22,040 bases of DNA from a virus, in the IMG/VR virus record IMGVR_UViG_3300009786_000862, positions 1 through 22,040 of that record; one strand, given 5' to 3'. This document shows, piece by piece, positions 1 through 22,040 of the stretch. Positions within the stretch are counted from its first letter, which is position 1; every line of letters starts with the position of its first letter. The position numbers and the translations under genes were made by a program. The notes under the pieces were generated by a model. The model was not told where the DNA came from. It saw only the letters and a list, made by a program, of their open reading frames with translations, and did no database searches.

Positions 1-13
1 AAGGTGTATTTCG

Positions 14-3423: not shown

Positions 3424-3431
3424 GAGAGAAG

Positions 3432-3743
3432 ATGAGTAAAGCAAGAGCAACATTAGGTTACACAATAAACATTGGTGATTATCAGAGTGTACGTCTAGAT
3501 GCTGATATTGAAGTAGATACTGAAGGTGATGTAGACGAGCAACTAGAGGTGTCTTTACAGGCTATACGAAAGGCTTGGGTAGCGGAGGAGTCTCAAATAG
3601 GAGAGGCTCTAACTCAGTTAGAAATGTCCTCTATTAAAACCAACACTATTGAGAATATGGTAAAGAGACTCGATAAGGTAGAGAAGGACTCGGCTAGTAT
3701 CAGAGATAAGTTGGGTAAGGTGGCTGCAAAGGAAGGGTGGTAA
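3432..3743 (+). CDS. small hypothetical protein
   Basis: This is a 103-residue protein of unknown function. The N-terminal half reads as beta strands (TLGYTINIGDYQSVRLDADI) followed by an acidic loop. The C-terminal half is a charged helix (about residues 55-98) likely to form a coiled coil. There are no cysteines or hydrophobic membrane stretches. Translation is well supported by AGGAGAG at 3422-3428, placed just before the ATG. Small proteins with a similar GYTINxGxYxSxR opening occur beside replication genes in other phages, as I recall, but no function is established. It sits immediately upstream of the sliding clamp. Confidence 0.7.
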   Translation: MSKARATLGYTINIGDYQSVRLDADIEVDTEGDVDEQLEVSLQAIRKAWVAEESQIGEALTQLEMSSIKTNTIENMVKRLDKVEKDSASIRDKLGKVAAKEGW

Positions 3744-3747
3744 ACAT

Positions 3748-6628: not shown

Positions 6629-7572
6629 AAAAAAGACTAACGGAGATAAACAAGGGTCTGCAAACAAAATTTACGTTGGCTGATGAAGAGTCGTTAGATA
6701 TACAACGTATTTCTACTGGTTTACCTAATTTGGATGCAATGTTAGGTGGAGGTTTACCTCGTAAATCATCCACTATTATTTATGGTCAAGAGTCTTCTGG
6801 TAAGACTTTTATTGCTTTGAAAGCGATTGCTCATGCTCAGTCAGAAGGACTGGAATGTGGTTTTGTTGACGCTGAGTTTAGTTACGACCCTGTGTGGGCA
6901 GAGAAAGTGGGTATACAAAAGAAGAAGCTGTATATCATTCAACCTGAGACAGGTGAACAAGCATTGGATGCCACCCTTGCTCTATGTAAGGCAGGGATAG
7001 ATTTAGTTATAGTGGATAGTATTGCGGCCCTCCTTCCTACAAAGGAGATGGAGGGTACAATGGAAGATAATACAATAGGACAACAGGCAAGGTTATTGAA
7101 TCAGTTTTTTAGGAAGCATGGACCTGTTAATTTTAAAACAGCGTTAGTGATGATTAATCAGGTACGGGCAGGAATTGGGGGTTACTACACCTCTGACGCG
7201 CTTCCTGCAGGAAAGGGTCAGCAATTTTTCTCTCGTATCATTGTTCAATGTAGAAGAGGTAAACCAATCCAAGAGAAAGGTAATTCTTTTCCTCTTGGTT
7301 TTATGATGGAGTTAAAGACTAAGAAGAACAAAACTGCCCCACCTTTAGGCGAGTGTACTCTTCCTTTTTATTATAGTGGAAAGATTGAGATGGCTACGTT
7401 GTTGTTTCAACTGGGTGTAGATTTTGGACACATAGAGCGTTCAGGTGCTTATTATAATTATGATGGGATACGAGAGTTAGGTAGAGAAAATTTTATTAAA
7501 GCATTGAAAGAAGAGAATAAGATGGATAAGCTAAGTAAAGACTTAGAGAAAGCAGAGGTAGTAAATGGCTGA
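6613..7572 (+). CDS. recA: RecA-type recombinase
   Basis: This protein forms filaments on ssDNA and catalyses strand exchange in repair and recombination-dependent replication. The core motifs are clear. Walker A is GQESSGKT at residues 58-65. VDAEFSYDP carries the catalytic Glu88. Walker B is LVIVDS, with Asp135 near its end. IGQQARLLNQFFRK and MINQVRAGIG (about 180-189) match the RecA L1 and sensor region. The 319 residues are fewer than the roughly 350 of bacterial RecA, and the C-terminal domain is short. This is usual for phage RecA/UvsX-like proteins. The start overlaps the polymerase end by 16 bases, and GGGGGGA (6597-6603) serves as ribosome binding site. The motifs are closer to bacterial RecA than to T4 UvsX. 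Confidence 0.95.
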   Translation: MAISLEKRLTEINKGLQTKFTLADEESLDIQRISTGLPNLDAMLGGGLPRKSSTIIYGQESSGKTFIALKAIAHAQSEGLECGFVDAEFSYDPVWAEKVGIQKKKLYIIQPETGEQALDATLALCKAGIDLVIVDSIAALLPTKEMEGTMEDNTIGQQARLLNQFFRKHGPVNFKTALVMINQVRAGIGGYYTSDALPAGKGQQFFSRIIVQCRRGKPIQEKGNSFPLGFMMELKTKKNKTAPPLGECTLPFYYSGKIEMATLLFQLGVDFGHIERSGAYYNYDGIRELGRENFIKALKEENKMDKLSKDLEKAEVVNG

Positions 7573-8056
7573 TTTAGGACAGGAATTTAGGGCGTTAGCT
7601 GAATCTTTTGCTCACATGATTGAGGGACTGGCTTACCTAGACGAAGACGAAGCAGGTCGTTTGGCTACTAAATATAGTGATGAGTTGGTAATAGCAGTGC
7701 GGTCAGTGTACAAAGACTTAGCTAATGATATGTCCGCTGTACTAGCAAAACCCCCTAAGAAACGTAGGGTACGTAGGAAAACAGTTACCATTAACTCGGT
7801 TCCTGCCGTGTCTGGGAATATACCTGCGCCCACACCTGCCCAGGTAGCAAATATACGAGCCGAAGCTAATATCGGAGTAGAGGAATTTCCTCCTCAGGAA
7901 GAAACTATTCGCTCCCAACAGGTAGACCCTGAGGATATGGGTATGGCTCTTGATAATATGCAACAAAGCCTCCATAGTAAACAGGTGACCAAACGGACTA
8001 ATAAAGGGGGATACCAAGAATCAAGAAACCCTCCCCAGACACGTCTAGATGAGTGA
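7565..8056 (+). CDS. hypothetical protein with basic patch
   Basis: This is a 163-residue protein I do not recognise. Residues 1-60 are acidic and helical. A strongly basic segment (PPKKRRVRRK, about residues 63-72) could bind nucleic acid. The remaining C-terminal half is polar, rich in Pro, Gln, Glu and Ser, and probably disordered. The gene overlaps the end of recA by 8 bases, with AGAGG at 7554-7558 ahead of the ATG. It is likely translationally coupled to RecA and to the following nuclease. An accessory role in recombination is possible from position only. Confidence 0.65.
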   Translation: MADLGQEFRALAESFAHMIEGLAYLDEDEAGRLATKYSDELVIAVRSVYKDLANDMSAVLAKPPKKRRVRRKTVTINSVPAVSGNIPAPTPAQVANIRAEANIGVEEFPPQEETIRSQQVDPEDMGMALDNMQQSLHSKQVTKRTNKGGYQESRNPPQTRLDE

Positions 8057-8376
8057 TGTTAAATGAACTCAGTAAGACAGATACCAAGGAACAATTACTG
8101 GTATCTAAATGGTTAACTGAAATCGGTTTAGAACATTCTCTGGAAGAAGAGTTTTCTCCTTACAGGGCTGATATATACATACACGACATTAGGTTGGTTA
8201 TTGAATTAGACGGTGCCTTTCATTTGAAGAAACGAGATGCTAAGAGAGATGCGTACCTCTTAGAGAAGTACGGGGTTTATACTTGGAGAGTCCCAAACTC
8301 AATGGTTACAGTGGGAAATAAAGAGAACTTAATAAAAGATTTAATGATTCTAGTGGAGGAATATAGTAATGCCTAA
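8056..8376 (+). CDS. DUF559/Vsr-like PD-(D/E)XK endonuclease
   Basis: This is a small, probable endonuclease of 106 residues. The catalytic core is compact: YRADIYIHDIRLVIELDGAF contains Asp39, then Glu50 and Asp52, followed by His56 and the basic helix KKRDAKRDAYLL. This matches the DUF559 and Vsr (very short patch repair) branch of the PD-(D/E)XK superfamily, in which strand Asp and Glu-x-Asp-Gly bind metal. The ATG at 8056 is preferred over GTG at 8053 because it shares its A with the TGA stop of the previous gene (TGATG), a classic coupling arrangement. The target is unknown. Candidates are mismatch or nick processing in recombination, or Holliday-type structures. Confidence 0.75.
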   Translation: MLNELSKTDTKEQLLVSKWLTEIGLEHSLEEEFSPYRADIYIHDIRLVIELDGAFHLKKRDAKRDAYLLEKYGVYTWRVPNSMVTVGNKENLIKDLMILVEEYSNA

Positions 8377-9073
8377 AGTAAGTCAGATGCTGAGAGCAAA
8401 AACTAAGTCTGCTAACAAGCACTGGATAGAGTCTGCTCTGGATATTGTACTTCTAGAAGAGAATAAACGAGAGTATAAGAAGCGTACTTACTTCAGACCT
8501 TCTTCTGCTCACTGGTGCCAACGATGTTTGTGGTACCAGATGATGGGGTATCCGCAGCCCCCTGATGAACCTTTGGGTTTGCGAAGAATGGGTATTGGAA
8601 CCTCTTACCATGAATTCATTCAAGAACGATTGAAGAAGACCAGCCTTGTAGATAGTATAGAATTAGAGGTTTTTAATGATGACCCTCCTATGAGGGGGTT
8701 TATTGACGGTATACTTATTCATCCTGATACAGGTGAAAAGCATGTTCTAGAGTTGAAGAGTAGGAACGAGAATACCCAGTACGCTCAAAAGACTATTCTT
8801 CCATCTAGTTCTCACTTGATACAGTGGAATCTCTATAGTCATATGGCAAATATAGAGAAGGGTATGATTTTCTATGTCAATAAAGGAAACAACCAGTATC
8901 AGATATACGAAGTGGAGCAAAACGAGTCTATCTTAGAAAACACTTTAGATAAGTTCCGTTTGGTCTGGGATGCTATCCAAAAGGACGAAAGAGTGCCTTA
9001 TGTGAAGTGTGAAGACAGATTTGACCCTCATAGAGAAGTGAGTGAGAGAGACTGGTTCATTAGTGGGGAGTAG
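8369..9073 (+). CDS. Cas4/RecB-like PD-(D/E)XK nuclease
   Basis: This is a probable DNA exonuclease that processes ends for recombination. The order of motifs is that of the Cas4/RecB nuclease family: RPSSAHWCQRCLWYQMMGYP (residues 43-62), the helix His81 in GTSYHEFIQERL, Asp113 in RGFIDGILI, Glu128-Leu-Lys130 in VLELKSR, and the QxxxY motif Gln152-Tyr156. Cys50 and Cys53, with Cys214 near the C-terminus, recall the iron-sulfur Cas4 proteins. Only three cysteines of the usual four occupy such places, so a cluster is uncertain. The start follows GGAGG (8355-8359) and overlaps the previous gene by 8 bases. Genes of this type often stand next to RecA and RuvC in phages. There are no cas genes here and no reason to link it to CRISPR. 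Confidence 0.8.
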   Translation: MPKVSQMLRAKTKSANKHWIESALDIVLLEENKREYKKRTYFRPSSAHWCQRCLWYQMMGYPQPPDEPLGLRRMGIGTSYHEFIQERLKKTSLVDSIELEVFNDDPPMRGFIDGILIHPDTGEKHVLELKSRNENTQYAQKTILPSSSHLIQWNLYSHMANIEKGMIFYVNKGNNQYQIYEVEQNESILENTLDKFRLVWDAIQKDERVPYVKCEDRFDPHREVSERDWFISGE

Positions 9074-9075
9074 TG

Positions 9076-9546
9076 ATGGTAAGCATATTAGAGTTAGCAA
9101 GTTCTATATCGAATAAGTACAAAGAGTTTCCTGCGCCCTTAGAACCTGAATGGGGAGAGAGTTTTAGGTTTCCTGTAGATGCGGATACTCTTAATGATGC
9201 CGAGTTAGATACTTGGATGTTGAAATTAGGAGCATGGAGAGGGTATGTTTCTGCTTTAGCTTCTACTCTTGAAGGACAGTTAGCTGTGATTGAACCTGCT
9301 TTTGAGATGAAAGTAGGTGCCGCAATGTCTACTGTAGACCTTCCTTCAGATAGGAGAACAGTTAAAGAGATTGTACGTAGTCTAGCTATTATTGGAAGTA
9401 TAGAGTTGACAGAAATTTGGAATGAGCTTCTTAGATTAAAGGGAGAGGTAAAAATTCTTCAAAAGAAGTATGAGTACTATACTCAGCAATTTGAGACTAT
9501 TTCCCGTGTGGTCTCTAGACGCGGTCAAGAAAAAATGAGGCTCTAA
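9076..9546 (+). CDS. possible UvsY-like recombination mediator
   Basis: This is a 156-residue, mostly helical protein with no catalytic motifs. It has an acidic N-terminal section (DADTLNDAELDTWMLKLGAW), a central helix with alternating Glu and Lys, and a C-terminal helix ending ISRVVSRRGQ. This pattern (acidic start, long helices, final Ser-Arg-rich helix) resembles T4 UvsY and related phage mediators that load the recombinase onto SSB-coated DNA. Such genes usually sit near the recombinase. The call is tentative and rests on pattern and position; it may simply be a coiled-coil protein. ATG 9076 is preferred over GTG 9073 because GGGGAG (9065-9070) is then 5 bases upstream rather than 2. Confidence 0.4.
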   Translation: MVSILELASSISNKYKEFPAPLEPEWGESFRFPVDADTLNDAELDTWMLKLGAWRGYVSALASTLEGQLAVIEPAFEMKVGAAMSTVDLPSDRRTVKEIVRSLAIIGSIELTEIWNELLRLKGEVKILQKKYEYYTQQFETISRVVSRRGQEKMRL

Positions 9547-9551
9547 GTGCC

Positions 9552-10082
9552 GTGACACGAGTTATAGGGATTGATGTATCTACTAAAAAACTAGCCTGTG
9601 TACTGCTTGATGGAAGTACATGGAGAGATGTAGAATTCTCTGCAAAGGCAAAGACATGGGATTTGAGGTTAGATGATTTACAAGAGCAGTTTTGGATATT
9701 TCTCCGTGACTCTGTAACAGATGATGATTTTCTCTTTATAGAAGAAGTCCCTTACGTTCAAAACGTCCAGGCTTTAATTAGACTGGTCCACACAGTGGCT
9801 ATGTGTAGGACTCTTTCTACTTTTTTTCATCGAAAATATAGGTACGTAAACAATTTAACATGGAAAAAAAGAGTGGTAGGTACAGGGAAAGTGTCTAAAG
9901 AAGATATAGTACTCAAAGCTCAAAAAATTTATGGAGTAGAGGAAACACAACACTTGAGTCAGGATTCATTTGATGCGCTTTTGATAGCTACTTACGGACA
10001 GAATATTTTAAGGTATGAAAAATGGCAAAATTACGATAGTGTAGAGGAACACTACAGAGGAGGTTCACATGGTCTCGTCTAA
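9552..10082 (+). CDS. RuvC-like Holliday junction resolvase
   Basis: This is a probable resolvase that cuts four-way junctions made by RecA, and branched DNA before packaging. It has the RNase H-like fold with all four acidic residues in place: Asp8 in VIGIDVSTKKLA, Glu64 in FLFIEEVP, and Asp138/Asp141 in SQDSFDALLIATYG. The basic segment WKKRVVGTGKVSKEDIV, about residues 104-120, matches the RuvC region between the third and fourth acidic sites. The 176-residue length is typical. The start is a GTG with only a distant GAGG (9536-9539). The gene overlaps the ribonucleotide reductase start by 14 bases. Confidence 0.88.
   Translation: MTRVIGIDVSTKKLACVLLDGSTWRDVEFSAKAKTWDLRLDDLQEQFWIFLRDSVTDDDFLFIEEVPYVQNVQALIRLVHTVAMCRTLSTFFHRKYRYVNNLTWKKRVVGTGKVSKEDIVLKAQKIYGVEETQHLSQDSFDALLIATYGQNILRYEKWQNYDSVEEHYRGGSHGLV
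10056..10063 (+). promoter_or_regulatory. strong Shine-Dalgarno site for the ribonucleotide reductase
   Basis: AGAGGAGG lies five bases before the ATG at 10069, inside the end of the RuvC-like gene. It is among the best matches to the anti-Shine-Dalgarno sequence in the window. This suggests that the reductase is translated at a high rate independently of its upstream neighbour. Confidence 0.75.
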
Positions 10083-12378
10083 ATTGACGGATAATGCAGT
10101 GCGAATTCTAAATGGAAGGTACCTAAAGAAGGACGAGAAAACAGGTGAGGTGACTGAAACTCCTTCAGATATGTTTAGACGGGTAGCAAAAACTATTTCT
10201 TCTACTGAACTTCATGAAGAAAATAAAGACAAATACGAAAATATTTATTATGAGATGATGTGGGATTTGGATTTTGTTCCTAATTCTCCTACTCTCATGA
10301 ATGCAGGACTAGGGGTTGGTACCCTTAGTGCTTGTTACGTTCTTCCCATAGAAGACTCTATGGACAGTATTATGACTGCTGCCTATGACCAAGCAATGGT
10401 TGAGAAGTTTGGTGGTGGGGTAGGGTTTCCTTTGTCTAATATCCGTCCTGAAGGCACGTATATTAAGACTACTCAGGGAAAAGCCTGTGGACCTATTAAT
10501 GTATTAAAGACCCTTTCTCAAGTAGGCACCATGATTACCCAAGGGGGTAAACGAGACGGGGCGCACATGGCAATAATGTCTGTTTATCATCCTGATATAG
10601 AAAAGTTCATTACCTGTAAGACCGTTGAGGGTGAGATTCATAATTTCAATATTTCTGTTGGTGCTGATAGTGGTTTTATGAACGCCGTTAACGAGGATTC
10701 TTATTTACATTTAACATGGCCTATAGATAAGAATTCCTATGACAAACCTTATTCTGATGAAGGAAAATGGATTAAAGCCAGAGACTTGTTTTCCAAGATA
10801 GTTCATGGCGCATGGCAAAACGGAGAGCCAGGAATGGTGTGGTTGGATAAGATAAATGAAGATAATGCCAGTCCTCATTTGGGTGATATAGAAGCCACTA
10901 ACCCGTGTGGGGAACAACCCCTCCTTGGAAATGAAAGTTGTAACTTAGGTTCTATAAATTTAGCAAATTTTGTGATTCGGTCTCCGAGTGGCAAACCTAA
11001 GTTTGACTCTTCTAGATTTGTAGATATTATAAATTTTGCGGTCAGATTTCTTGATTCAGTAGTAAACGCTAACGAACACCCAACCGCAGCAACTACTGAT
11101 ATGAATAACAGAACTCGTAAAATAGGGTTAGGTTTGATGGGTTGGGCAGACCTTTTATATCAACTGGAGATTCCTTATCAAAGTAAAGAGGCTCTAACAT
11201 TAGCCAATACTGTCGGTAAGGTGTTAAAGGATACCGCTGATAAGACCTCTGCCGTTCTTGGAGAGCAGCTAGGGGATTTTAAGGAGTTTGACCAAAGTCC
11301 ACTTAATAAAAAGAACGGTGGGAAATGGGATTTCATGCGAAATGCATGGAGACTTTCCATTGCTCCTACTGGAACGATTGCAATGATTGCAGACACTTCT
11401 TCCAGTATAGAACCTCAGTTTGCTCTTGCTTATACCAAGAAGAACCTCAGTGCTTCTCTAGAAGATGAGGAATTTATTTACATAAATAAATATTTTCTAA
11501 TAGCTATGGATAATACCCAGTTAACCAATTCCGAGAAGGAAGAGATTATTAATGGGTTGAAGAACAAAAAGAGTCTTCAATCTATGGATTACGAAGCCAA
11601 AGGATTCAATAAACTCAAAGAAGTGTTCTTAGTAACTGAGGATATACGTCCCAAGGACCATGTAGGAGTACAAGCTGTTTTTCAAAAGTATGTGGATAGT
11701 GGCATAAGTAAAACCATTAATCTCGCTAATGAAGCCACTGAAGAGGATGTATCGGAAGCGTATACTCTGGCATGGGAGTTGGGGTGTAAAGGAATTACTG
11801 TTTATAGGTCAGGGAGTAGAGAGAAAGAGGTTTTGGTAGCAGGAACATCTGAGAATGGGTCAAAGCCTGTAGCATCAGAATATTTTGTTGATGATTGGAC
11901 ACGTCCTAATGAGATGTCTGGTATTACTTCTAAGATTCAGACAGGGCACGGTAGTCTTTACGTTACTATGAACAAGGATGCTAGTGAACAAATAAAAGAG
12001 GTTGTTGCTTGGACAGGCAAGTCAGGAGCCTGTGAACATGCGGCATCCGAGGCTTTTGGTAGACTCATTTCCACTGCTATACAGTTTGGTGTTCCTATGC
12101 CAATAATAATTAAACAATTAAAAGGTATAGAGTGTTGTCCCCAATTCTGGAACGGTAAGAGAGTATCTTCGCCCCCCGATGGTATTGCTCAGATTCTGGA
12201 GAATACTTTTTATACTGCAACTGAATCTACTATGGACACTAAGACGTTACCACAGCTTTCTTCCGATACTATCAAGGTAAATACTTCTAAGAATCTATGT
12301 AAAGATTGTTCTACTCAATTAATAGAACAAAGTGGATGTATCACATGTCCTTCATGTGGATGGAGTAAATGTGGGTAA
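10069..12378 (+). CDS. nrdJ: class II (adenosylcobalamin-dependent) ribonucleotide reductase
   Basis: This enzyme reduces ribonucleotides to deoxyribonucleotides using coenzyme B12, without oxygen or a second subunit. The active site is complete. Cys89 (LSACYVLP) and Cys291 form the redox pair. Asn278, Cys280 (thiyl radical) and Glu282 lie in NPCGEQPL. The 11-residue spacing from Cys280 to Cys291 equals that of Thermotoga NrdJ. APTGTIAMIADTSSSIEPQF (about 433-452) is the phosphate-binding loop region. The C-terminus carries six cysteines (744-768, CKDC, CITC, CPSCGW), the zinc-ribbon/swinging-arm feature typical of NrdJ. At 769 residues it is shorter than many bacterial NrdJ. No large N-terminal ATP-cone was seen, and there is no intein interruption. 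It presumably feeds the phage polymerase; the host must supply B12 and a reductant. Confidence 0.95.
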   Translation: MVSSKLTDNAVRILNGRYLKKDEKTGEVTETPSDMFRRVAKTISSTELHEENKDKYENIYYEMMWDLDFVPNSPTLMNAGLGVGTLSACYVLPIEDSMDSIMTAAYDQAMVEKFGGGVGFPLSNIRPEGTYIKTTQGKACGPINVLKTLSQVGTMITQGGKRDGAHMAIMSVYHPDIEKFITCKTVEGEIHNFNISVGADSGFMNAVNEDSYLHLTWPIDKNSYDKPYSDEGKWIKARDLFSKIVHGAWQNGEPGMVWLDKINEDNASPHLGDIEATNPCGEQPLLGNESCNLGSINLANFVIRSPSGKPKFDSSRFVDIINFAVRFLDSVVNANEHPTAATTDMNNRTRKIGLGLMGWADLLYQLEIPYQSKEALTLANTVGKVLKDTADKTSAVLGEQLGDFKEFDQSPLNKKNGGKWDFMRNAWRLSIAPTGTIAMIADTSSSIEPQFALAYTKKNLSASLEDEEFIYINKYFLIAMDNTQLTNSEKEEIINGLKNKKSLQSMDYEAKGFNKLKEVFLVTEDIRPKDHVGVQAVFQKYVDSGISKTINLANEATEEDVSEAYTLAWELGCKGITVYRSGSREKEVLVAGTSENGSKPVASEYFVDDWTRPNEMSGITSKIQTGHGSLYVTMNKDASEQIKEVVAWTGKSGACEHAASEAFGRLISTAIQFGVPMPIIIKQLKGIECCPQFWNGKRVSSPPDGIAQILENTFYTATESTMDTKTLPQLSSDTIKVNTSKNLCKDCSTQLIEQSGCITCPSCGWSKCG

Positions 12379-12748
12379 ACGTTTTGTAATTGAACTAGCA
12401 CGTACCCCAAAAGAATGGGCTAAAGGTCTTTCAGGAAGAACCGAACTTTCTGAGGGACATGGTTTATTTTTTGTGTACCAGACTGAGGAACCACGTTCTT
12501 TTTGGATGAAGGGCATGTTATTTCCAATAGATATCATCCATATAGATGAATCTAGTAGGGTAGTGCGTGTGGAGAGAACTGTTTCTCCTATAAAACCAAA
12601 TGATGAGCTAAAACTCTATCCTAGTAGGGTTCCCATTAAATATGCTCTAGAAGTTAATGCAGGAGAATCTTCCGACATAACAACTGGAAATTCTTGTAAA
12701 CTTAATTTTAATAATGATATAAGTAGGTATATTCTGACTTTTACATAA
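12371..12748 (+). CDS. DUF192 family protein
   Basis: This is a 125-residue protein of the DUF192 family, whose biochemical role is not established. The hallmark segments are present: RTPKEWAKGLSGR near the N-terminus, GLFFVYQTEEPRSFWMKGM, then PIDIIHID and YALEVNAG. There is no signal peptide, unlike many bacterial members, so a cytoplasmic role is likely. An upstream ATG at 12332 would add 13 residues. The GTG at 12371 is preferred because GGAG (12362-12365) stands five bases before it, and the product then starts right at the domain. It overlaps nrdJ by 8 bases. Pairing with a ribonucleotide reductase suggests co-expression, but no functional link can be shown. Confidence 0.85.
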   Translation: MGKRFVIELARTPKEWAKGLSGRTELSEGHGLFFVYQTEEPRSFWMKGMLFPIDIIHIDESSRVVRVERTVSPIKPNDELKLYPSRVPIKYALEVNAGESSDITTGNSCKLNFNNDISRYILTFT

Positions 12749-12771
12749 AATAAAAAGAAAGGGGATTTGTA

Positions 12772-13095
12772 GTGGGTGCTTCAGGAATTACTTTATTTCC
12801 TGTTTCCAAGAGTGACTGCAAATCTCTACTCAGTAGTCTTAAATACACTTTGGAACAAATTGATTATCCCAATACTGGGATATTTTCTGAGTGTTTAAAG
12901 CTTCTTACACAAGGCTATCTAAGGGGTAGAGGGATACGTCTTGATGGGTTTAGTCAGCAAAAGGAAAAGGAACAGTATGTGCTTTTTTTAGCTGATGTGA
13001 TGTGGGAGATGTCTTTGGAAGAAGACTCTTATAGATGGTTTGTGGAGTGGGTCAAGAAACTAGAAAGTGCTGTGAAAGAAAAAGAGGTGCTGTAG
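12772..13095 (+). CDS. hypothetical helical protein
   Basis: This is a 107-residue protein I do not recognise. It appears all-helical, with two cysteines (about residues 16 and 41) and a Trp/Glu-rich C-terminal helix (ADVMWEMSLEEDSYRWFVEW) ending in a Lys/Glu tail. There are no membrane segments or known motifs. GTG is the start, and AGAAAGGGG at 12756-12764 is a good ribosome binding site. It is separated from the DUF192 gene by 23 AT-rich bases with no visible hairpin, and it shares one base with the next gene. Confidence 0.65.
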   Translation: MGASGITLFPVSKSDCKSLLSSLKYTLEQIDYPNTGIFSECLKLLTQGYLRGRGIRLDGFSQQKEKEQYVLFLADVMWEMSLEEDSYRWFVEWVKKLESAVKEKEVL

Positions 13096-13671: not shown

Positions 13672-13932
13672 ATGTTTGGTAAATTCTCAATAATAAGAGA
13701 TGAAGAAGGATTAGAAGTAGCTATCGTATCGCCTTCTCCTATAATTGTGTTTGATTCCTTACAGGCATTAAAGGTATGGGTAGAGGAGTTACAAAAACTT
13801 ATTATCGGTATGGAAGATGAGGATTTGAAAAAATCTTCTATTCCATTGACCAATACTTATGCATCGCAGGTGATAAAAGAATGGCAGACACTACTACAAA
13901 AGAGCCAAGGAAGCAGTGGGACCGAGACGTAA
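13672..13932 (+). CDS. small hypothetical protein preceding terminase
   Basis: This is an 86-residue protein of unknown function, the first gene after the late promoter. The N-terminal half reads as short beta strands (FSIIRDEEGLEVAIVSPSPI). It is followed by a helix (SLQALKVWVEELQKLI) and a polar tail. There are no cysteines or membrane segments. The ribosome binding site ahead of ATG 13672 is weak. Its last 52 bases overlap the small terminase gene in another frame. Its position suggests a packaging accessory, which is inference only. Confidence 0.6.
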   Translation: MFGKFSIIRDEEGLEVAIVSPSPIIVFDSLQALKVWVEELQKLIIGMEDEDLKKSSIPLTNTYASQVIKEWQTLLQKSQGSSGTET

Positions 13933-14393
13933 GAGATGCCGCTAGGGACCTGTATCTTACAGGTGATACTGTTACAAGTATTGCTTCGGAACTAGATGTC
14001 CCTGTCCCAACTGTCAGGTATTGGCAGAATAAAGATAATTGGACTAATTCTAAGAGAAGTCTTGAGTTATCTACTAACGACAATACCTTAGAAGAAATAT
14101 CAGTAACCCTCACTAGGTCACGTAGTGAGGCTATGAAAGACTATATTCGTATACAGGATACAGCTAAAGATGGTCTTTACGATGATGAACTTAGGTTTCG
14201 GGACAAGAAACAAGCTGTAGATGCTCTTGCTGTAGGGTTGAAAGGTGAAAGAGACTTACTTAATCAGAATGTGTCTATGCAGTTAATACTGGAGATAGCT
14301 AAGGTACTTGATGCAGAAATCACAGACCCCTTCCTCAGACAACGAATCGGTAATAAGCTTGTTGCAATCGGGCAACTCTACGCCTCAGACTGA
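13881..14393 (+). CDS. terS: terminase small subunit
   Basis: This is the DNA-recognition subunit of the packaging motor. The N-terminal 60 residues form a helix-turn-helix of the terminase/transposase type: ARDLYLTGDTVTSIASELDV, then PVPTVRYWQNKDNW. A long helical oligomerisation region follows (RSRSEAMKDYIRIQD and on). The C-terminal helices probably contact TerL. The 170-residue length and the place directly upstream of TerL support the call. The ATG has a poor ribosome binding site and lies inside the preceding gene, so coupling is likely. The TerL gene begins 83 bases before this gene ends. Confidence 0.8.
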   Translation: MADTTTKEPRKQWDRDVRDAARDLYLTGDTVTSIASELDVPVPTVRYWQNKDNWTNSKRSLELSTNDNTLEEISVTLTRSRSEAMKDYIRIQDTAKDGLYDDELRFRDKKQAVDALAVGLKGERDLLNQNVSMQLILEIAKVLDAEITDPFLRQRIGNKLVAIGQLYASD

Positions 14394-16320
14394 CAACAGT
14401 GTAAAAACCGCTTTAGATACTTTATCTAGTGTTCTTTTAGGGAACACCAATATTGCTACGGTTGAAGAACGGTTTCAGGGAAAAGTAAAAGAAAAGAAGG
14501 ATTCTCTATTTCAGGAAGACCCTGTAGATATAGAAACCTTTCTATATCATCCAGACTACCTTGGTCTCAACATAACTCTTTCTAAACCCCAGATAGAGTT
14601 TGTGGATAGTATGTCCCGTATCTTTGAGGCTCCCTTGTTTACCGAGGGGGTTCTTCAAAGTGGTCAGGGTTCAGGTAAAGATACTTGTTCTATTTTCATC
14701 AATCTGAGAATTGTTTATCTTTTATGGTGTCTTAACTCTCCTCAAACCTTTTTTAAGATGGCTACTAATTCCTTTATTGACCTTATAAATGTAGCTCCCA
14801 CTTCTGATATAGCTAGAAATATTTACTTTGCTACTCTAACTAATATAGTTAAGGACTCTCCACTCTTTCAAAATAGGATAGAAGCCAGTGTTACGTCCAG
14901 TCTAATTAATTTTCCCAAGAATATAAGGCTTATAAGTGGTAACTCTGAGAACGAGTCGTGGCAGGGATACACTCCTATTCTTGTTATTTTGGATGAGATT
15001 GATGCTTTTAAGAGTGAAATGGAGCTTAACCGAAGCAAGAGTTTACGTTCTGAGGGTGCTGAAGGCGTTTACAACACTGCCAAGGCTCTAGTTCAGTCTC
15101 GTTTTCCTGGGGTAGGCAAGATTGTTTCTTTGTCTTGGCCCCGTTTCAAAGGGTCTTTTATACAAAGAAGATTTGCTGCTGGAAAATTAGAAGAGAAAAC
15201 CTATGTAGCTGCAAAATCAGACGGTAATCCTTACACTACTTGGGAGTTTAATCCTACTAAGAGTAAGGATGATTTTGCAGATTTCTATCTGACTGACCCA
15301 GTATTAGCTCAAGCTAGGTTTGAATGTAATCCTCCTTATGCAAGAGATGCTTTTATAAAAGACCCTGTACCTGTTTTAAGGGCTTTTGATGCTGATATTG
15401 ATGAATCTGATGTCATAGTTCATGCAGCCTTAAAACCTATACGAAGTGAATACAACCTAACCTCTGGTATTAAATACTATATTCACGTAGACCTAGGTCA
15501 AAAACACTCTAATGCTGCTTTAGCTGTAGCTCATAAAGATAAAGACATTGTGGTGGTAGACCTATTAAAGGTATGGGAACCTGAACCAGACCATGACATT
15601 GAATTAAGAGACATTCAAAACTTTATTGTTAAATTAAAAGACCGTGGTTTCAAGTTAATGGAAGTTACTTATGACAAGTTCCAGTCTTTAGATTCTATCC
15701 AACAATTACAAAATCTAAATATAAATGCCAAGTATAAAAGCGTAACTCGTACTGCCGAGGCTTATGACACTTTTAAAGATTTGGTTTATCAAGAAAAGGT
15801 AGATGGTTATTTTGATGCTGCTCTTATAGCGGAGATTTTGGGTTTGGAACGAGTACTTGGGGATAGAATAGATGCCAGACCTGGATTTAAGAAAGATAGG
15901 GCTGACGCTGTGGTTGGTGCCATACATGGTGCTGTTCAGGGTCAGGGTATTACCAGAATAATGAAAAATATGGGAAATATTCAGGATGTTTTTGGTAATT
16001 CCAGTCCTACTAAAAGTGATAGACTGAGCGGTAATGCTCAAGAACACAAAGAATTTGAACAGAAAAAAGAAGCCATAATGTCTCAATTAGAGCCAACTTC
16101 TTCAAATTCTTCTCTTAATTACGTTGATAGGTGTGACAACTGTGGTCGTACTGGAGGAGTTGAATTTAGTTATCAACAGCTAAGAGTTGCTCTAGAGGAA
16201 GACTCTGATAGAAAAATATGTTTGATTTGTACTTCTTCATGGACAAAAATAGACAATCGTTGGATGGTTATTTCAGAACCAGATGAACAAGAACTATCTA
16301 GGTTTGGAGGTACGTGGTAA
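14311..16320 (+). CDS. terL: terminase large subunit with C-terminal zinc ribbon
   Basis: This is the ATP-driven motor and nuclease that packages DNA through the portal. The ATPase has Walker A SGQGSGKD (about residues 117-124) and Walker B ILVILDEIDAF (Asp228, Glu229). The RNase H-like nuclease has IHVDLGQKHSN (Asp394), VTYDKFQS, and KKDRADAVVGA (Asp529, Asp532). After a linker, the last 62 residues carry CDNC (608, 611) and CLIC (637, 640), a zinc ribbon not found in canonical TerL. The total of 669 residues is long for the family. ATG 14311 is preferred over TTG 14308; AAGG at 14301-14304 is the ribosome binding site. It overlaps the small subunit by 83 bases. Confidence 0.93.
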   Translation: MQKSQTPSSDNESVISLLQSGNSTPQTDNSVKTALDTLSSVLLGNTNIATVEERFQGKVKEKKDSLFQEDPVDIETFLYHPDYLGLNITLSKPQIEFVDSMSRIFEAPLFTEGVLQSGQGSGKDTCSIFINLRIVYLLWCLNSPQTFFKMATNSFIDLINVAPTSDIARNIYFATLTNIVKDSPLFQNRIEASVTSSLINFPKNIRLISGNSENESWQGYTPILVILDEIDAFKSEMELNRSKSLRSEGAEGVYNTAKALVQSRFPGVGKIVSLSWPRFKGSFIQRRFAAGKLEEKTYVAAKSDGNPYTTWEFNPTKSKDDFADFYLTDPVLAQARFECNPPYARDAFIKDPVPVLRAFDADIDESDVIVHAALKPIRSEYNLTSGIKYYIHVDLGQKHSNAALAVAHKDKDIVVVDLLKVWEPEPDHDIELRDIQNFIVKLKDRGFKLMEVTYDKFQSLDSIQQLQNLNINAKYKSVTRTAEAYDTFKDLVYQEKVDGYFDAALIAEILGLERVLGDRIDARPGFKKDRADAVVGAIHGAVQGQGITRIMKNMGNIQDVFGNSSPTKSDRLSGNAQEHKEFEQKKEAIMSQLEPTSSNSSLNYVDRCDNCGRTGGVEFSYQQLRVALEEDSDRKICLICTSSWTKIDNRWMVISEPDEQELSRFGGTW

Positions 16321-18107
16321 TGGGATGGATGGATAATATCGCCAACACTTTATCTGGAAGAACGGAGGACGCTGTAGCAAGCACTTCTGTAAACGAACAA
16401 TATGACCAGCGTCTTGCGATGTTGGATAATTTTGTTAAGCAAAATGCTTCAAGCGGCAGTTCTGCTCCTGAAGGTAGTATTAGCGAGAAGATGTCACCTG
16501 TTGGACTGGATGCCATTATTCAGGACTGGGTGCGACAGCAGTTTATTTATCGCAGGTCTATTCTCCAAGACCTGTACATTATGGCTTTTCAGGTTACGGA
16601 GATTAGGTCTGCTCTTCTTTCTATTAAGAGAGAGGTGTTTCGTAAGGGGTTTGGGGAATGGGTACAGAAATTTGTAAGGACATGTCCTAACTGTGAAAAG
16701 AAGTTTGATGAGTCGAATGAAGGTTGTGACGATTGTTTTGATTATGAATATGTGACTGAGTATAGGTACACCGAAACTGGTGACCACTCAGCCTATAGGA
16801 CTAAGAAGTGGAAAAGAGACGATGAGGGCAATAAGATTGTCACACAAACTCGTATGCCCGACCTGACTCAACAGAGTCGTTTTGATGTTTTCTTAACTGA
16901 CGCTAATACGTTTCATCAGCCCCTACTTAATGTACTGATGGAATTCTTTGATGATGTGATGATTGCGGATGATGGGTTCCTTCTCGTTAACAAGGAGTAT
17001 GAACTAGACAGGGACAGTGGTGAAATTTTTGTAAAAGATGTATTTGAGATAACTCGATTACATCCTGCTCTTGTTGAGTTTGATATAGACCGTAAAGACG
17101 GGTTACCTGAGAGAAGCCATTATATTTGTCTTCTTCACAGGAATGAACAGATTAATACGGGTCCAGGTGGATGTGCTGCTGTAGCTGATGATGGTGGTTC
17201 CTGTGGGGCCGAGTTATACCCTGCTCTTTATAGGTACTACTGGAGAGGCAGGTATAGGTATTACACCAAGGATGAGATATTCCACGCCAGCTTCTTTTCT
17301 CCATCTAAGACCTATGGGTATTCTCCTGTACTGACTATTTTTGAGAAGATTCTTACTCTGACTGGATTGGACAGGACGTACTACAGGTATTTCTACGAAA
17401 GACGTATTCCACCTGGAGTTGTAATCTCGTATACGGATGACCCAGAGTCTCTGGAGACCGAGATTGAACGTATCAAGATGCAGATGTTACAAGACCCTAA
17501 TACTTTCCCATGGGTTGCGGCATCTTCTAAGAGTAACAGGGGACGTACTGACCAAATTAGATTGGGGTATACTTTTGAAGAATTAGATATTCTTTCTGTA
17601 AGACAGGAAATTAGAGAAAGAATAGCCATGCTCTGGGGTGTGACTCCAATGTATCAAGGAGATTCCAGCAGCGTTGGTGGTTTGACTCGTGAGACTGCTC
17701 AGACATCTATGTTTGAGAACTTGGTGGAGTCTTATCAAAACATAATTAATAGAGGGGTTCTTCCTTTCATACTCAAGTCTTTGGGAATAACTGATTGGGA
17801 AATCCAGCTTACTCCTCCGTTAGAGCGGACTGAGGAAGATAAGTTGCGACTGGATAAACAACGGATTGAAAATGCACAGGCGATGATTAATCTTGGCTAC
17901 ACTCCCACTAAAACCAAGGGTGTGGATATCAAATTTACATACGAGAAGGCACCACAACCTCCAATGGGAATGCCTGGATTGGAAGGTATGCCGCCTCCTC
18001 CAATGGACCCAGGAATGGCACCTCCTCCTCCAATGGCACCACCTATGGCCCCAGGAATGGCACCTCCTCCAGCAGGACCGATGCCACCGCCGCCACCAGC
18101 AGGATAG
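16320..18107 (+). CDS. portal protein with inserted zinc ribbon and Pro/Met-rich tail
   Basis: The portal forms the ring through which DNA enters the head. The call rests on position directly after TerL, length, and portal-like segments: SALLSIKREVFRKGFGEW, EIFHASFFSPSKTYGYSPV and the clip/stem-like region VRQEIRERIAMLWGVTPMYQ. Two additions stand out. A zinc ribbon CPNC/CDDC (Cys122, 125, 136, 139) is inserted in the N-terminal part, and a second Cys pair lies at 285 and 295. The last 52 residues (17949-18104) are almost entirely Pro, Met, Ala and Gly. ATG 16320 overlaps the TerL stop as TAATG, with GGAGG at 16306-16310. GTG 16314 would add two residues and is less well placed. Confidence 0.85.
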   Translation: MGWMDNIANTLSGRTEDAVASTSVNEQYDQRLAMLDNFVKQNASSGSSAPEGSISEKMSPVGLDAIIQDWVRQQFIYRRSILQDLYIMAFQVTEIRSALLSIKREVFRKGFGEWVQKFVRTCPNCEKKFDESNEGCDDCFDYEYVTEYRYTETGDHSAYRTKKWKRDDEGNKIVTQTRMPDLTQQSRFDVFLTDANTFHQPLLNVLMEFFDDVMIADDGFLLVNKEYELDRDSGEIFVKDVFEITRLHPALVEFDIDRKDGLPERSHYICLLHRNEQINTGPGGCAAVADDGGSCGAELYPALYRYYWRGRYRYYTKDEIFHASFFSPSKTYGYSPVLTIFEKILTLTGLDRTYYRYFYERRIPPGVVISYTDDPESLETEIERIKMQMLQDPNTFPWVAASSKSNRGRTDQIRLGYTFEELDILSVRQEIRERIAMLWGVTPMYQGDSSSVGGLTRETAQTSMFENLVESYQNIINRGVLPFILKSLGITDWEIQLTPPLERTEEDKLRLDKQRIENAQAMINLGYTPTKTKGVDIKFTYEKAPQPPMGMPGLEGMPPPPMDPGMAPPPPMAPPMAPGMAPPPAGPMPPPPPAG

Positions 18108-18116
18108 GAGTTTATT

Positions 18117-18692
18117 ATGTCAATGGGGCCTAGTTACCAATTTCCAGTGGTAATAACAAGAATAGTTGACGGTGACACAGTCGATGCCCGAATAGATATG
18201 GGCTTCAAGATTGTGTATGAGGAACGTATCCGACTCCTAGGGCTAGATACTCCTGAGTCCTTTACGTCTAACAAGAAGGAAAAGGCTTTAGGACTGGCTG
18301 CGAAATACAGAATTAAAGAACTCATAGCTGAGGCCAATCTACTTCCTAAGAAACGTGGCAAGAAAGATATAGTCCTAAAAACATCAAAGCATGGCAAAGG
18401 TAAATTTGGACGAATTCTAGGTGAGATTTGGATTAACGCCAACACTGGTGAAGGAATTAATGTAAACCAAGCTCTTATAGATGAAGGACACGCGAGATGG
18501 TACATGGGCGGTTCTAAAGGTGAGATGGGTGAATGGGCTGTCGAAGAAGGATGCTCATATAGCTGTGGCGGTAAAAAGATTAAGAGCGTAAGAAACCCTG
18601 AGGGTGGTTGGACTAAAAGGTATTGTGACGGTACTTGGACTAAGTGGACACCTGATGGATATGTATCCCACGACGTAGATGTAGGAATCTAA
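18117..18692 (+). CDS. thermonuclease (SNase-like) family protein
   Basis: This is a probable staphylococcal-nuclease-type enzyme that cleaves DNA or RNA with calcium. The OB-fold core shows VVITRIVDGDTVDARID (Asp18/Asp20), RIRLLGLDTPES (Arg39, Asp44, Glu47) and KGKFGRILGEI (Arg99), matching the metal and phosphate ligands of the family. NVNQALIDEGHARWYMGG is the typical C-terminal helix region. Residues 145-191 are an extension with three cysteines (GCSYSCGG and YCDG) and several Trp residues, perhaps a small metal-binding domain. AGGATAGGAG at 18101-18110 is a strong ribosome binding site. There is no signal peptide, so it acts inside the cell or is carried in the particle. Its place between head genes suggests host-DNA breakdown or packaging-related trimming. 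Confidence 0.88.
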   Translation: MSMGPSYQFPVVITRIVDGDTVDARIDMGFKIVYEERIRLLGLDTPESFTSNKKEKALGLAAKYRIKELIAEANLLPKKRGKKDIVLKTSKHGKGKFGRILGEIWINANTGEGINVNQALIDEGHARWYMGGSKGEMGEWAVEEGCSYSCGGKKIKSVRNPEGGWTKRYCDGTWTKWTPDGYVSHDVDVGI

Positions 18693-19138
18693 TGGTTTTT
18701 AGCAAACAACAAGGCTCTAGTAGGGCGTTCATGGTAGAAGATGATGCGCCTAAACGTAGAAAGTTTACTCGTAAGACCACCAATAATAGTGGACGAGATG
18801 CTGGTCACACAGGAGACATTGGTCTTCTTTATGATGACAGTTTGTATCTTCAGGATGAGATAGGTAAGACTCTAGACTCAATCATTAAATCCCTAGAAGG
18901 GGGGAAGGTTGCTCCTTCCGAGGTGCATGATGCATATCATGCGATTAACGATTTTCTAGGAAAAGAAGAGAAGTTTCCAAGGGTTGGGTGTATGCCTGGG
19001 TACCATGACCATCCTGGGACTAAAGGATGTCACCCAATAGATAAACCTCATAGAGGTGAGATAATAACCGCTATGGGCGGGTCAGGAGCTTATGAAAGAG
19101 TTCATCCAAACAACACTCCCGAAAGCTATAGTAGTTAA
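18692..19138 (+). CDS. hypothetical protein with Cys/His motif
   Basis: This is a 148-residue protein of unknown function, translated from an ATG that overlaps the nuclease stop (TAATG). The N-terminal 45 residues are basic and polar (PKRRKFTRKTTNN). A helical middle (LYLQDEIGKTLDSIIKSLEG) follows. Next comes GCMPGYHDHPGTKGCHPIDK, about residues 107-126, where two Cys and three His could bind a metal. I recall similar Pro-Gly-x-His-x-His-Pro-Gly-x-x-Gly-Cys-His segments in other phage head-region proteins, without a known role. The tail is Ser/Gly/Pro-rich. It is the last gene before a 55-base gap. Confidence 0.65.
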   Translation: MVFSKQQGSSRAFMVEDDAPKRRKFTRKTTNNSGRDAGHTGDIGLLYDDSLYLQDEIGKTLDSIIKSLEGGKVAPSEVHDAYHAINDFLGKEEKFPRVGCMPGYHDHPGTKGCHPIDKPHRGEIITAMGGSGAYERVHPNNTPESYSS

Positions 19139-19193: not shown

Positions 19194-22040
19194 GTGTCTA
19201 CTAAAGAATTAGACAATATAGCAAAAGCTGTTCGTAATCTTTTAGGTAAACAAGCCGCTAATAACTCTGCTGGTGGTGGAGAAAAGGCTTCGTCTACTGG
19301 AAGAAACCAGTCTACTCCTACTCCTACTCCTCCTCAGCAACAGCCTCAACCGAATACTGCTGCTCAGCAGCAACCCGCTCAGCAGCCTCAGCAAGCGGCA
19401 CCAGCACCACAGCAACAGCCCCAGCAAGCTCAGCAACAGCAACCTGCTCAGCAAGCACAACCACAGCAGCAACCTGCTCAGCAACCTGCTCAGCAACCTG
19501 CTCAGCAGCCTCTGCCACAGGCTCACCAGAGTGCCGCTGCTCAACGCACAAAGACGAGACAGAATGCCGTTGCTCAACGCATAAAGACGAGACAGAATGC
19601 CGTTGCTCAACGCATAAAGACGAGACAGAATAAGCTAACTCAACAACCTGCTCAGCAGCAGCCGCAGCAGCCAGTTCAAGCTAATGCTGCTCAAGAAGCA
19701 GGACAGGTTAATGCTGCTCAGCAGCCAGGACAAGCTAATGCTGCTCAAGTGGCAGGTGCTGCTCAACCCCCTGAGACAGAATGGGTAGGTGGAAGACAGT
19801 ACGATGTAGCCACAGGTATGCATATTCCTCCTAACGCACAGCAAGAACCACAGCCAGTTCAAGCTAATGCTGCTCAAGTGGCAGGACAAGCTAACGCTGC
19901 TCCTCAACAGCAAGACCCTCAGCAAGAGGCTTCTCAATTTGAAGATTTTGGTCAACTTAATGTTCTTAATCCAGAAACTGGAGAAAAAGAAACTCTTCCA
20001 CAAGGGTCAAAAACCAATCCTTATACCCGTGAACCATTAGGTAATGAACTCTGGCGACAGAAGGGTCCACCTGAACCTGCTGACGCACAGCAAGACCCTC
20101 AGCAACAGAGTTACTCAGGGAGTGCTGCTGGAAAACAAGCTGCAGCGAACCAGAACGCTGCTTTAAAGAATATGACTAGGTCTGGTTCATTCACTACAGG
20201 TACTAAGACCGCTATCGGTAATTTTATTACTGGTGCAGAGGATAAAGACGCTGCAAGAACAGAGCTTCAGCAGCGCATAGAGGAGTTTGGAGATAATACC
20301 GAAAAGTGGGATGAATGGTCTGCAGAACAGACTAAGGAGTCAGAAGGAACTGAGCAGCAGCCACAACCGAATGCTGCTCCTGAAGAACCACAGCAACAGA
20401 GTTACTCAGGTAGTGCTGCTGGGAAACAAGCCACAGCAAATCAGAATGCTACTCTAAAGAATTTAACTCAAGCTAATGTATTCACTTCAAGCACTAAAAA
20501 TGCTATTGGTAATTTTATTACTGGTGCGGATGATAAAGATGCCGCAAGAACAGAACTTCAGCAACGTATAGATGAATTTGGAGATAACCCCGAAAAGTGG
20601 AACGAGTGGACTGCAGGACAGGCTAAGGGTGCAGAAGGAACTGAGCAGCCGCCACAAGAGACGGTACAGCAGCCACAACCGAATGCTGCTCAGCCACAGG
20701 CTCCTCAAGAGCCTCAAGTACAACCACAGCCTCAACCTAATGCTGCTGCTGCTGCACCACAGCCACAACCGAATGCTGCTGCACCACAACCGCAAGTACA
20801 ACTAGATATTCAGCAGCCTCAGCAAACGGTACAAAATATCCAACAAGTGCAAAACAAGCTACGCCAGCTTCCTAGTGCAGGTCAACAGCCAAATGCTTCT
20901 CAAGCACCTGCTGCACAACCTACACCTACACCAGTCCCAGAGGAAGAAGCGGCGCAGCCCTCTTCTGCGTCTCAGTATCTGGAAGAACAACAAGCAGCAG
21001 CAAAGGCTACAGGAGCAAACGTTTCTCAAGCACCTGTGACACAACCTACGCCTACACCAGAAGTAGATGATGAAATTGCAGGTATTGCTTCCGAATTAAG
21101 AGCCAGTGGTCAACCAGCGACAATAGTTAATCCTGTGACTGGGGAACAGGAAGAGGTAACTGGACACGTTAATCCTTATACGGGAGAACCGTTAGAAAAC
21201 GTAACAGCGCAACAACAGGCTCCCCAAACACCAGCAGCCTCAGTTAAAAACAAAACATCACAACAGTCACAACCCTCGTCTGCGGCTTCAACGGAAAAAG
21301 GGGCTAAGTACAACTCCCATATGAGTCAGATACGGGAAAAACAAGCAGCGGGAGGAAAGCTAACGCAGGATGATATACAGACTGCGTTTGACCTTACATT
21401 GGATGATGGCTTAGCCGATACAGGGTTTGAAGAATATGGAGATGCTTTAACTCCTGAAGGAAAGAAATCCGAAGAATTAAGAGCGAAGCTATCCAAGAAA
21501 AAAGAAGCAGGGGAAGAAATATCTAGAGACGAAATTAAAGAGTTGCAGAAAAGTCAGACAGCCGGAATGGCTGCACAGAGGAAAGTGAAAGACCCAAAGA
21601 AAGCACAACCACAGCCTAAAAGAATAAAACCGAACCACGATGAAGCCATGAAAAATATGTCTTCTCCAGAGAAGGCTGACTACATGCGAGAACAAATAAA
21701 ACAGAGAACCCAACGAAGCCTACAAGGAAATACGAAGACCGCAGAGAATTATGAGTCTGAATTGGCTAAAGGGAAAGCAAATGCTGCTCAAAATAGAAAA
21801 ACGTCAAAGGCTAATTTGAGAACAAATGCAAATGCAATGATGGCAGAGATGCAACGAAAATCGGAAGAAGCTCAGGCTAAAGCTGGAGCAGGGAATCTTC
21901 GTAAATCATCCGCACAGACAGGGAGTCAAATGGTTAAGAAAAGCAAATCATCTCGGTTTAAAAAGGGTCAAGATTTGATAGAAGCCCTTGATGTGCTTAT
22001 TCAAAAGCAGACTCCTCCTAATTCAAATGTGAATGCTTCG
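19194..22040 (+). CDS. giant Gln/Ala/Pro-rich low-complexity protein (partial, runs off window)
   Basis: This frame stays open for 949 codons to the window edge; no stop was found reading codon by codon. The GTG at 19194 is preceded by TAGGTAGG (19181-19188) and by an in-frame TAG at 19185, so the start is well defined. After a short N-terminal helix (KELDNIAKAVRNLLGK) comes a low-complexity region: 34 of the 66 codons from 19332 to 19529 are Gln. Further on are tandem basic repeats, QANAA motifs, two copies of an 86-residue module and two copies of a NPxTGE block. From about 21290 the sequence turns into charged Lys/Glu/Ala-rich helices. Gln is written with mixed CAG and CAA, so this is not a simple triplet expansion. 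The function is unknown. Being next to portal genes, it may be a head-internal, scaffold-like or tail protein. Confidence 0.85.
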   Translation, partial: MSTKELDNIAKAVRNLLGKQAANNSAGGGEKASSTGRNQSTPTPTPPQQQPQPNTAAQQQPAQQPQQAAPAPQQQPQQAQQQQPAQQAQPQQQPAQQPAQQPAQQPLPQAHQSAAAQRTKTRQNAVAQRIKTRQNAVAQRIKTRQNKLTQQPAQQQPQQPVQANAAQEAGQVNAAQQPGQANAAQVAGAAQPPETEWVGGRQYDVATGMHIPPNAQQEPQPVQANAAQVAGQANAAPQQQDPQQEASQFEDFGQLNVLNPETGEKETLPQGSKTNPYTREPLGNELWRQKGPPEPADAQQDPQQQSYSGSAAGKQAAANQNAALKNMTRSGSFTTGTKTAIGNFITGAEDKDAARTELQQRIEEFGDNTEKWDEWSAEQTKESEGTEQQPQPNAAPEEPQQQSYSGSAAGKQATANQNATLKNLTQANVFTSSTKNAIGNFITGADDKDAARTELQQRIDEFGDNPEKWNEWTAGQAKGAEGTEQPPQETVQQPQPNAAQPQAPQEPQVQPQPQPNAAAAAPQPQPNAAAPQPQVQLDIQQPQQTVQNIQQVQNKLRQLPSAGQQPNASQAPAAQPTPTPVPEEEAAQPSSASQYLEEQQAAAKATGANVSQAPVTQPTPTPEVDDEIAGIASELRASGQPATIVNPVTGEQEEVTGHVNPYTGEPLENVTAQQQAPQTPAASVKNKTSQQSQPSSAASTEKGAKYNSHMSQIREKQAAGGKLTQDDIQTAFDLTLDDGLADTGFEEYGDALTPEGKKSEELRAKLSKKKEAGEEISRDEIKELQKSQTAGMAAQRKVKDPKKAQPQPKRIKPNHDEAMKNMSSPEKADYMREQIKQRTQRSLQGNTKTAENYESELAKGKANAAQNRKTSKANLRTNANAMMAEMQRKSEEAQAKAGAGNLRKSSAQTGSQMVKKSKSSRFKKGQDLIEALDVLIQKQTPPNSNVNAS
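19533..19631 (+). repeat. three tandem 33-bp repeats
   Basis: The units are 19533-19565, 19566-19598 and 19599-19631. The last two are identical; the first differs at two bases (CT for TT, and CAC for CAT). Each encodes 11 residues, AVAQRIKTRQN, in frame with the giant protein, and brings a basic patch into a region otherwise without charge. The near-identity indicates recent duplication. Confidence 0.95.
19677..19901 (+). repeat. five copies of a QANAA-coding motif
   Basis: The 15-base element CAAGCTAATGCTGCT or a close variant starts at 19677, 19704, 19731, 19860 and 19887 within the giant gene. The first three copies are exactly 27 bases apart. The copy at 19860 shares a longer match with that at 19731, through CAAGTGGCAGG. 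It encodes Gln-Ala/Val-Asn-Ala-Ala. Confidence 0.85.
19968..20045 (+). repeat. NPxTGE / NPYTxEPL block, copy 1
   Basis: This block encodes NPETGEKETLP, then NPYTREPLGN. A second copy occurs at 21129-21200 (NPVTGEQEEVT, then NPYTGEPLEN). The shared Asn-Pro-x-Thr-Gly-Glu and Asn-Pro-Tyr-Thr-x-Glu-Pro-Leu-x-Asn residues suggest a short functional motif rather than random low complexity. Confidence 0.7.
20100..20357 (+). repeat. 86-residue module, copy 1
   Basis: This segment of 258 bases encodes an 86-residue unit containing QQSYSGSAAGKQAAANQN, AIGNFITGAEDKDAARTELQ and EEFGDNTEKWDEW. It is matched at equal length by copy 2 at 20391-20648. Its composition is like a folded helical domain, unlike the Gln/Pro-rich flanks. 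Confidence 0.9.
20391..20648 (+). repeat. 86-residue module, copy 2
   Basis: This is the second copy of the 258-base unit, offset by 291 bases from copy 1 with no insertions or deletions. Conserved parts are QQSYSGSAAGKQ, AIGNFITGA-D-KDAARTELQQRI and EFGDN-EKW-EW. The middle (NLTQANVFTSSTKN against NMTRSGSFTTGTKT) has diverged. Many changes are at third codon positions, as expected if the protein sequence is under selection. Confidence 0.9.
21129..21200 (+). repeat. NPxTGE / NPYTxEPL block, copy 2
   Basis: This block encodes NPVTGEQEEVT, then NPYTGEPLEN. It is the counterpart of the block at 19968-20045, about 1.1 kb away within the same protein. Confidence 0.7.

Follow-up and report, generated by a model that had tools for sequence, protein, structure and literature searches.

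Which kind of protein is encoded by a very long, glutamine-, alanine- and proline-rich open reading frame (ORF) that runs off the end of a viral contig downstream of its portal gene? The window, which is the whole stretch of DNA analysed here, is the entire IMG/VR record (22,040 bp), and the giant ORF occupies its last part on the + strand (19194-22040), starting at a GTG codon and continuing for 949 codons without a stop up to the window edge. Because the record itself stops at this edge, the extent of the ORF is a lower bound (at least 949 aa) and the C-terminus of the protein is unseen.

Coding status, repeats and predicted structure of the giant ORF

The frame of at least 949 residues from GTG to the window edge, described in the original prediction, was reproduced, and it exceeds every one of 1,000 dinucleotide-preserving shuffles of the region, in which the open stretch had a median of 104 and a maximum of 246 codons. 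The five remaining frames of the same region contain 31-69 stops each, and the GC3 of the ORF (0.30) lies within the range of the other genes of the virus. Gln, Ala, and Pro account for 17.0%, 15.1%, and 9.1% of the residues, respectively. In the Gln/Ala/Pro-rich stretch at 19332-19529, 34 of 66 codons (51.5%) encode Gln, in agreement with the earlier statement that about half of them do, and CAG and CAA are both used (81 and 80 times in the whole ORF). The description of the protein as PolyQ-like holds as far as Gln richness is concerned, but not in the strict sense; the longest Gln run has four residues and all others have three or fewer, and the label of a homopolymeric polyQ protein was rejected on this ground. 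Hydrophobic residues make up only 13.6% of the giant protein, compared to a mean of 31.5% for the ORFs over 200 aa of a related genome (G006), and the visible part has no cysteine. Averaged over 19 aa, the Kyte-Doolittle hydropathy peaks at only 0.47, so that no membrane-like segment was found and none is expected. Judged from its composition and from low model confidence, the giant protein looks mostly disordered. Its net charge is positive from residue 751 onward and also in residues 101-150, the region of a basic repeat, where it reaches +10.

Repeated modules, which the original prediction had recognized, are present at several scales. An amphipathic-looking N-terminal segment, MSTKELDNIAKAVRNLLGKQ (19194-19253), precedes the Gln-rich stretch, which carries a 12-nt tandem unit, CAGCAACCTGCT (QQPA), and for which TRF additionally lists a 21-nt unit in rows with indels. 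This stretch is followed by a basic tandem repeat of 33 nt (11 aa, QNAVAQRIKTR) in 3.2 copies at 19527-19631 and by a tandem repeat of 27 nt (9 aa) in three copies at 19677-19756. A short module (repeat family D8) occurs at 19959-20051 (NPETGE...NPYTREPL) and again at 21120-21203 (NPVTGE...NPYTGEPL), and a larger helical module of 91 codons is found at 20094-20366 and 20385-20657. The units of 12, 27, 33, and 291 nt are all multiples of three, which fits growth of the protein through in-frame duplication and is as expected if the ORF was lengthened by tandem duplication of this kind. The two copies of the helical module are 77% identical in protein sequence and differ at 15, 7, and 27 sites in codon positions 1, 2, and 3, respectively, with a dN/dS of 0.20, from which selection at the protein level, considered likely beforehand, could be deduced. 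We can conclude that the giant ORF is a real gene constrained at the protein level.

AlphaFold2 predicts four helices for the helical module, with pLDDT values of 80-86 in the core block, a mean pLDDT of 72.6, and a pTM of 0.57. A further Q/A/P linker separates these modules from the C-terminal part, in which two consecutive helical hairpins (residues 701-740 and 754-796; 21294-21581), a 75-residue helix rich in K, R, A, and Q (21666-21890), and a final helix in the FKKGQDLIEALDVLIQKQ region (21951-22010) are predicted. The C-terminal model, with a mean pLDDT of 69.6, a pTM of 0.23, and helix blocks reaching 94, supports the charged helical C-terminal part proposed earlier. Only the presence of helices is taken from these models since the inputs consisted of a single sequence for the C-terminal part and of two copies for the module.

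Gene neighbourhood and searches for relatives

The assignment of the ORF to a head-gene region is borne out by the genes upstream of it, all on the + strand. They comprise a terminase small subunit-like gene (Terminase_5 in Pfam; 13881-14393), the terminase large subunit (14308-16320; PHROG matches that are weak but consistent), a portal protein with a Pro-rich C-terminal tail (16314-18107; phrog_18178, E 1.2e-45), an SNase-like nuclease identified by Pfam (18117-18692), and a gene for a 148-aa protein with the motif HxHxGx4Hx5H (18692-19138). Outside the 148-aa gene of the window, this motif was found only in related viruses, each of which has it in a single small portal-linked gene that follows a tRNA nucleotidyltransferase-like gene (L061 20244-20645 and equivalents in G001, G005, G007, and G008). 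On the basis of the motif, its product is a candidate metal-binding head-region protein. The SNase has counterparts with 93% protein identity in G001 and on a contig of 95.6 kb (L091), although the portals of the window and G001 are only about 58% identical, and its relatives at 75-80% identity lie in unrelated gene contexts. From both observations, the gene looks recently transferred.

Among isolates, the portal has relatives in the haloarchaeal viruses HCTV-5 and HVTV-1 and in a Methanomassiliicoccales-assigned virus (22.9-25.6% identity). HVTV-1-type viruses fall inside a clade mostly of marine sequences in an MCP tree, and a portal tree clusters similarly (PMC8651126). The replication genes of the window are of bacterial type (RecA, DnaG, a DnaN-like clamp, a DnaB-like helicase, and PolA); the bacterial-type RecA, DnaG, DnaN-like clamp, and PolA genes at 1-13000 are combined with a portal closest to those of archaeal tailed viruses. 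A DUF192 protein is encoded at 12332-12748, directly 3′ of a class II ribonucleotide reductase gene.

Searches with the giant protein itself returned no relative. Its visible 949 aa have no match in Pfam or PHROGs, which includes the absence of a protease domain, of the Peptidase S78 type or any other, and no MuF domain was matched in Pfam at E values up to 0.1; the capsid gene lies off the window contig. Within the window, the frame contains no stop, and its product matches no known family of capsid proteins, proteases, or tape measures, all of which the original prediction had named as findings that would speak against it. A tblastn search of 50,697 phage records and IMG/VR scans with the C-terminal third and the repeat module yielded no relative, and Foldseek gave nothing at E ≤ 0.001 for the C-terminal model against PDB and BFVD or for the repeat-module model against BFVD. 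No contig extends the ORF; two close relatives of the window (L002 and L006) stop short of it, and contigs with SNase hits have different gene contexts. Relatives of the window terminase or portal were also sought in genome collections, with none found. Among the terminase homologues at ~32% identity, L010, L013, L017, L018, and Streptomyces phage Wofford were considered and set aside, as they lack a portal-giant arrangement after the terminase.

Giant genes behind the portal in related viruses

A scan with a portal profile added G004 and G005 (a near-identical pair), G006, G007, and G008 to the previously found G001. The portals of these five distinct viruses are 56-58% identical to that of the window, and in each of them two giant genes directly follow the portal (giant-1 and giant-2; 715-1042 and 717-1117 aa). 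Downstream of both giants are two small genes, a tRNA nucleotidyltransferase-like gene, named from Pfam and PHROGs matches in G001, and the HxHxGx4Hx5H gene. Pairwise identities among the five genomes are 66-87% for the portals versus 22-55% for giant-1, and the giants after the portal have changed far more rapidly than the portal itself. The original view that a protein of this size and kind is unusual in phages could therefore be maintained for its Gln content, as among the loci examined only three further ORFs with a length of 150 aa or more exceed 10% Gln (highest, 11.8%), but giant, fast-evolving proteins are the rule at this place in the virus group. Giant-1 contains 21-24% hydrophobic residues, 0-1 Cys, and 5-7% Gln. 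Giant-2 carries a PI3/PI4-kinase-like domain, which clears the Pfam cut-off in G004 and G006 and falls short of it in G007; giant-2 of G001 has no Pfam match at E 0.01.

In more distant contigs resembling L025 (portals 28-31% identical), a single giant of 1155-1936 aa lies between the portal and the protease and capsid genes, the protease being a separate ORF downstream of the giant. One portal-linked giant of 1928 aa (L032 12950-18736) has a DNA/RNA-ligase-like match (PF01068), below the cut-off, at residues ~1471-1598. HVTV-1 has ORFs of 1059, 410, and 1335 aa between portal and capsid gene, and zeta-toxin, ParB-like, and ADP-ribosyltransferase domains are found in the ORFs of this interval in HVTV-1 and HCTV-5. 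In G006, the capsid gene is situated at 100 kb, some 70 kb away from the giants near the portal, and directly 5′ of it are genes for an acidic scaffold-like protein of 338 aa and a maturation-protease protein of 970 aa (L083 15983-18895). The protease domain of the latter is C-terminal (residues 797-939), and its N-terminal ~790 residues have no family match and contain long Gly- and acid-rich stretches. Since the protease and scaffold-like genes adjoin the capsid gene, core assembly functions of G006 are placed away from the portal-linked giants.

Direct comparison did not join the window giant to these proteins. Full-length profiles of giant-1 and giant-2 do not match it, and its global identity to the relatives' giants (19-25%) is the same as that of a shuffled control (19-24%). 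A profile restricted to the C-terminal region, which was picked post hoc, scored 14.2 bits, a value equalled by 17 of 999 shuffles. A helix motif, LLxxLDxL, is suggestive in the relatives and in portal N-termini and is not significant in the window giant; a PSSM built from the relatives' head-region proteins scored 5.7 on it, which 12% of shuffles reached. A similar N-terminal helix, LLxLDYxLAK, in the tRNA nucleotidyltransferase-like protein (L061 18716-20251, which corresponds to 31310-32845 in G006; equivalents in G001, G004, G007, and G008) resembles helices in the neighbouring giants and portal N-termini and is possibly a capsid-targeting signal.

Possible role of the giant protein and comparison with known systems

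From its position and character, the window giant may be an orphan occupant of a slot that follows the portal and is filled by giant genes in the related viruses. We consider the chances about evenly balanced that it is a fast-evolving, portal-associated protein in the interior of a Caudoviricetes virion, probably one that is ejected. The internal-head role, already among those suggested for this ORF, is supported because the relatives keep giant ORFs adjoining the portal; moreover, the domains seen in the relatives (PI3/PI4-kinase-like, zeta toxin, ADP-ribosyltransferase, ParB-like, and ligase-like) fit injected effectors. The protein would consist of small helical modules strung on flexible Q/A/P-rich linkers, whose length would vary by in-frame tandem duplication. 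It would be loaded into the procapsid at assembly, perhaps held via its helical, basic C-terminal part, would lie with the packaged DNA inside the head, and would pass through the tail to enter the cell with the genome. Passage through the tail would be feasible because the protein is mostly unfolded, free of cysteine, and without membrane segments. Virion presence, ejection, DNA contact, and effector activity are what we infer on this reading, and the effector activity may have its seat in the unseen C-terminus. Against it stand the lack of homology with the relatives' giants and of an enzymatic domain in the visible 949 aa, and the assignment to the slot is weakened by the SNase gene and the small gene that intervene between portal and giant in the window, whereas giant-1 and giant-2 directly follow the portal.

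Other explanations are each less probable. The protein could act in assembly only, as a scaffold or as the disordered N-terminal extension of a scaffold-protease precursor, which would be cleaved off and would not stay in the mature head. The ~790-aa extension of the G006 protease demonstrates that giant low-complexity protease extensions occur in this virus group, and the window ORF is truncated upstream of the point where a C-terminal protease domain would show. However, different giants follow the portal in G006, with the protease and acidic scaffold-like genes ~70 kb off, and the L025-like contigs encode the protease separately, after the giant. A core scaffold, one of the roles first suggested, is thus less likely, and we regard the assembly-only explanation as having perhaps one chance in a handful. 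Slightly less weight is given to a non-virion protein, that is, a disordered Q-rich hub or condensate-former of the infected cell whose gene is near the head genes by chance. Low-complexity Q/A/P-rich sequence combined with helical modules would suit such a hub, and the many contexts of the neighbouring SNase gene indicate that genes at this place are not all structural, but portal-adjoining giants recur across several related lineages and the longest Gln run has just four residues. It is more doubtful still that the protein, in a prion-like manner, forms a condensate with DNA or a flexible, copy-number-tuned core in the procapsid and is then ejected.

A tape measure or a fibre would also be long, repetitive, and partly helical, and a tape-measure protein does appear among the Foldseek matches, at rank 49 with a non-significant E value of 3.8. 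The ORF is portal-proximal rather than in a tail-module position, however, and the protein has no membrane-like segment and no tail-family match in Pfam or PHROGs, which makes a tail protein very unlikely. Least probable of all is an artefact of sequencing or assembly. Tandem repeats at a contig end are where assemblies fail, and the copy number is possibly wrong, but an open frame whose repeat copies differ in a codon-position-structured way, with the dN/dS and GC3 values given above, is hardly compatible with an artefactual origin.

Related tailed viruses repeatedly fill the portal-adjoining slot with giant proteins that change rapidly, and toxin-, transferase-, or kinase-like domains are present in several of them. 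If such proteins are packaged in the virion, the slot would be a systematic place to search for injected viral effectors, and the window giant would show that low-complexity, repeat-expanded sequence is also able to fill it.

The closest parallels to the window giant are the giants of the uncultivated viruses G001, G004-G008, and the L025-like contigs, which are likewise near the portal, very long, fast-diverging, and poor in hydrophobic residues. In contrast to the window giant, giant-1 is not Q-rich, and giant-2 carries a kinase-like domain that is not seen in the visible part of the window protein; sequence homology was undetected. HVTV-1 and HCTV-5 (Druskaviridae), whose portal is related to that of the window (about 25%), also have giant ORFs before the capsid gene, but these large ORFs have recognizable enzyme domains and no Q/A/P-rich repeats, and their hosts are archaeal, whereas RecA, DnaG, and DnaN-like genes of the window virus are of bacterial type. 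Polyvalent proteins combine several domains of unrelated activity, are virion-packaged and injected, and typically have their genes close to those for late virion proteins, mostly in portal-terminase phages (PMC5512222); the large phage proteins predicted to be packaged and injected have domains that include zeta-toxin-like kinases and ARTs (PMC5512222). Like polyvalent and MuF-type proteins such as phage P1 DarB and the N4 virion RNA polymerase (PMC5512222), the window giant is very large, plausibly delivered with the DNA, and encoded near portal and terminase genes, with TerS, TerL, and portal upstream as in the typical location. Those proteins have an enzymatic or MuF domain, and the window giant is not classed with the polyvalent proteins because its visible 949 residues contain neither. 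T4-type internal head proteins and the ejection proteins of SPN3US reside inside the head with the DNA and are ejected, which is the course proposed here for the window giant. T4-type internal proteins have an N-terminal capsid-targeting sequence that is cut by the prohead protease; the window giant, which has no homology to them, would resemble them in its place within the head and in its ejection with the genome.
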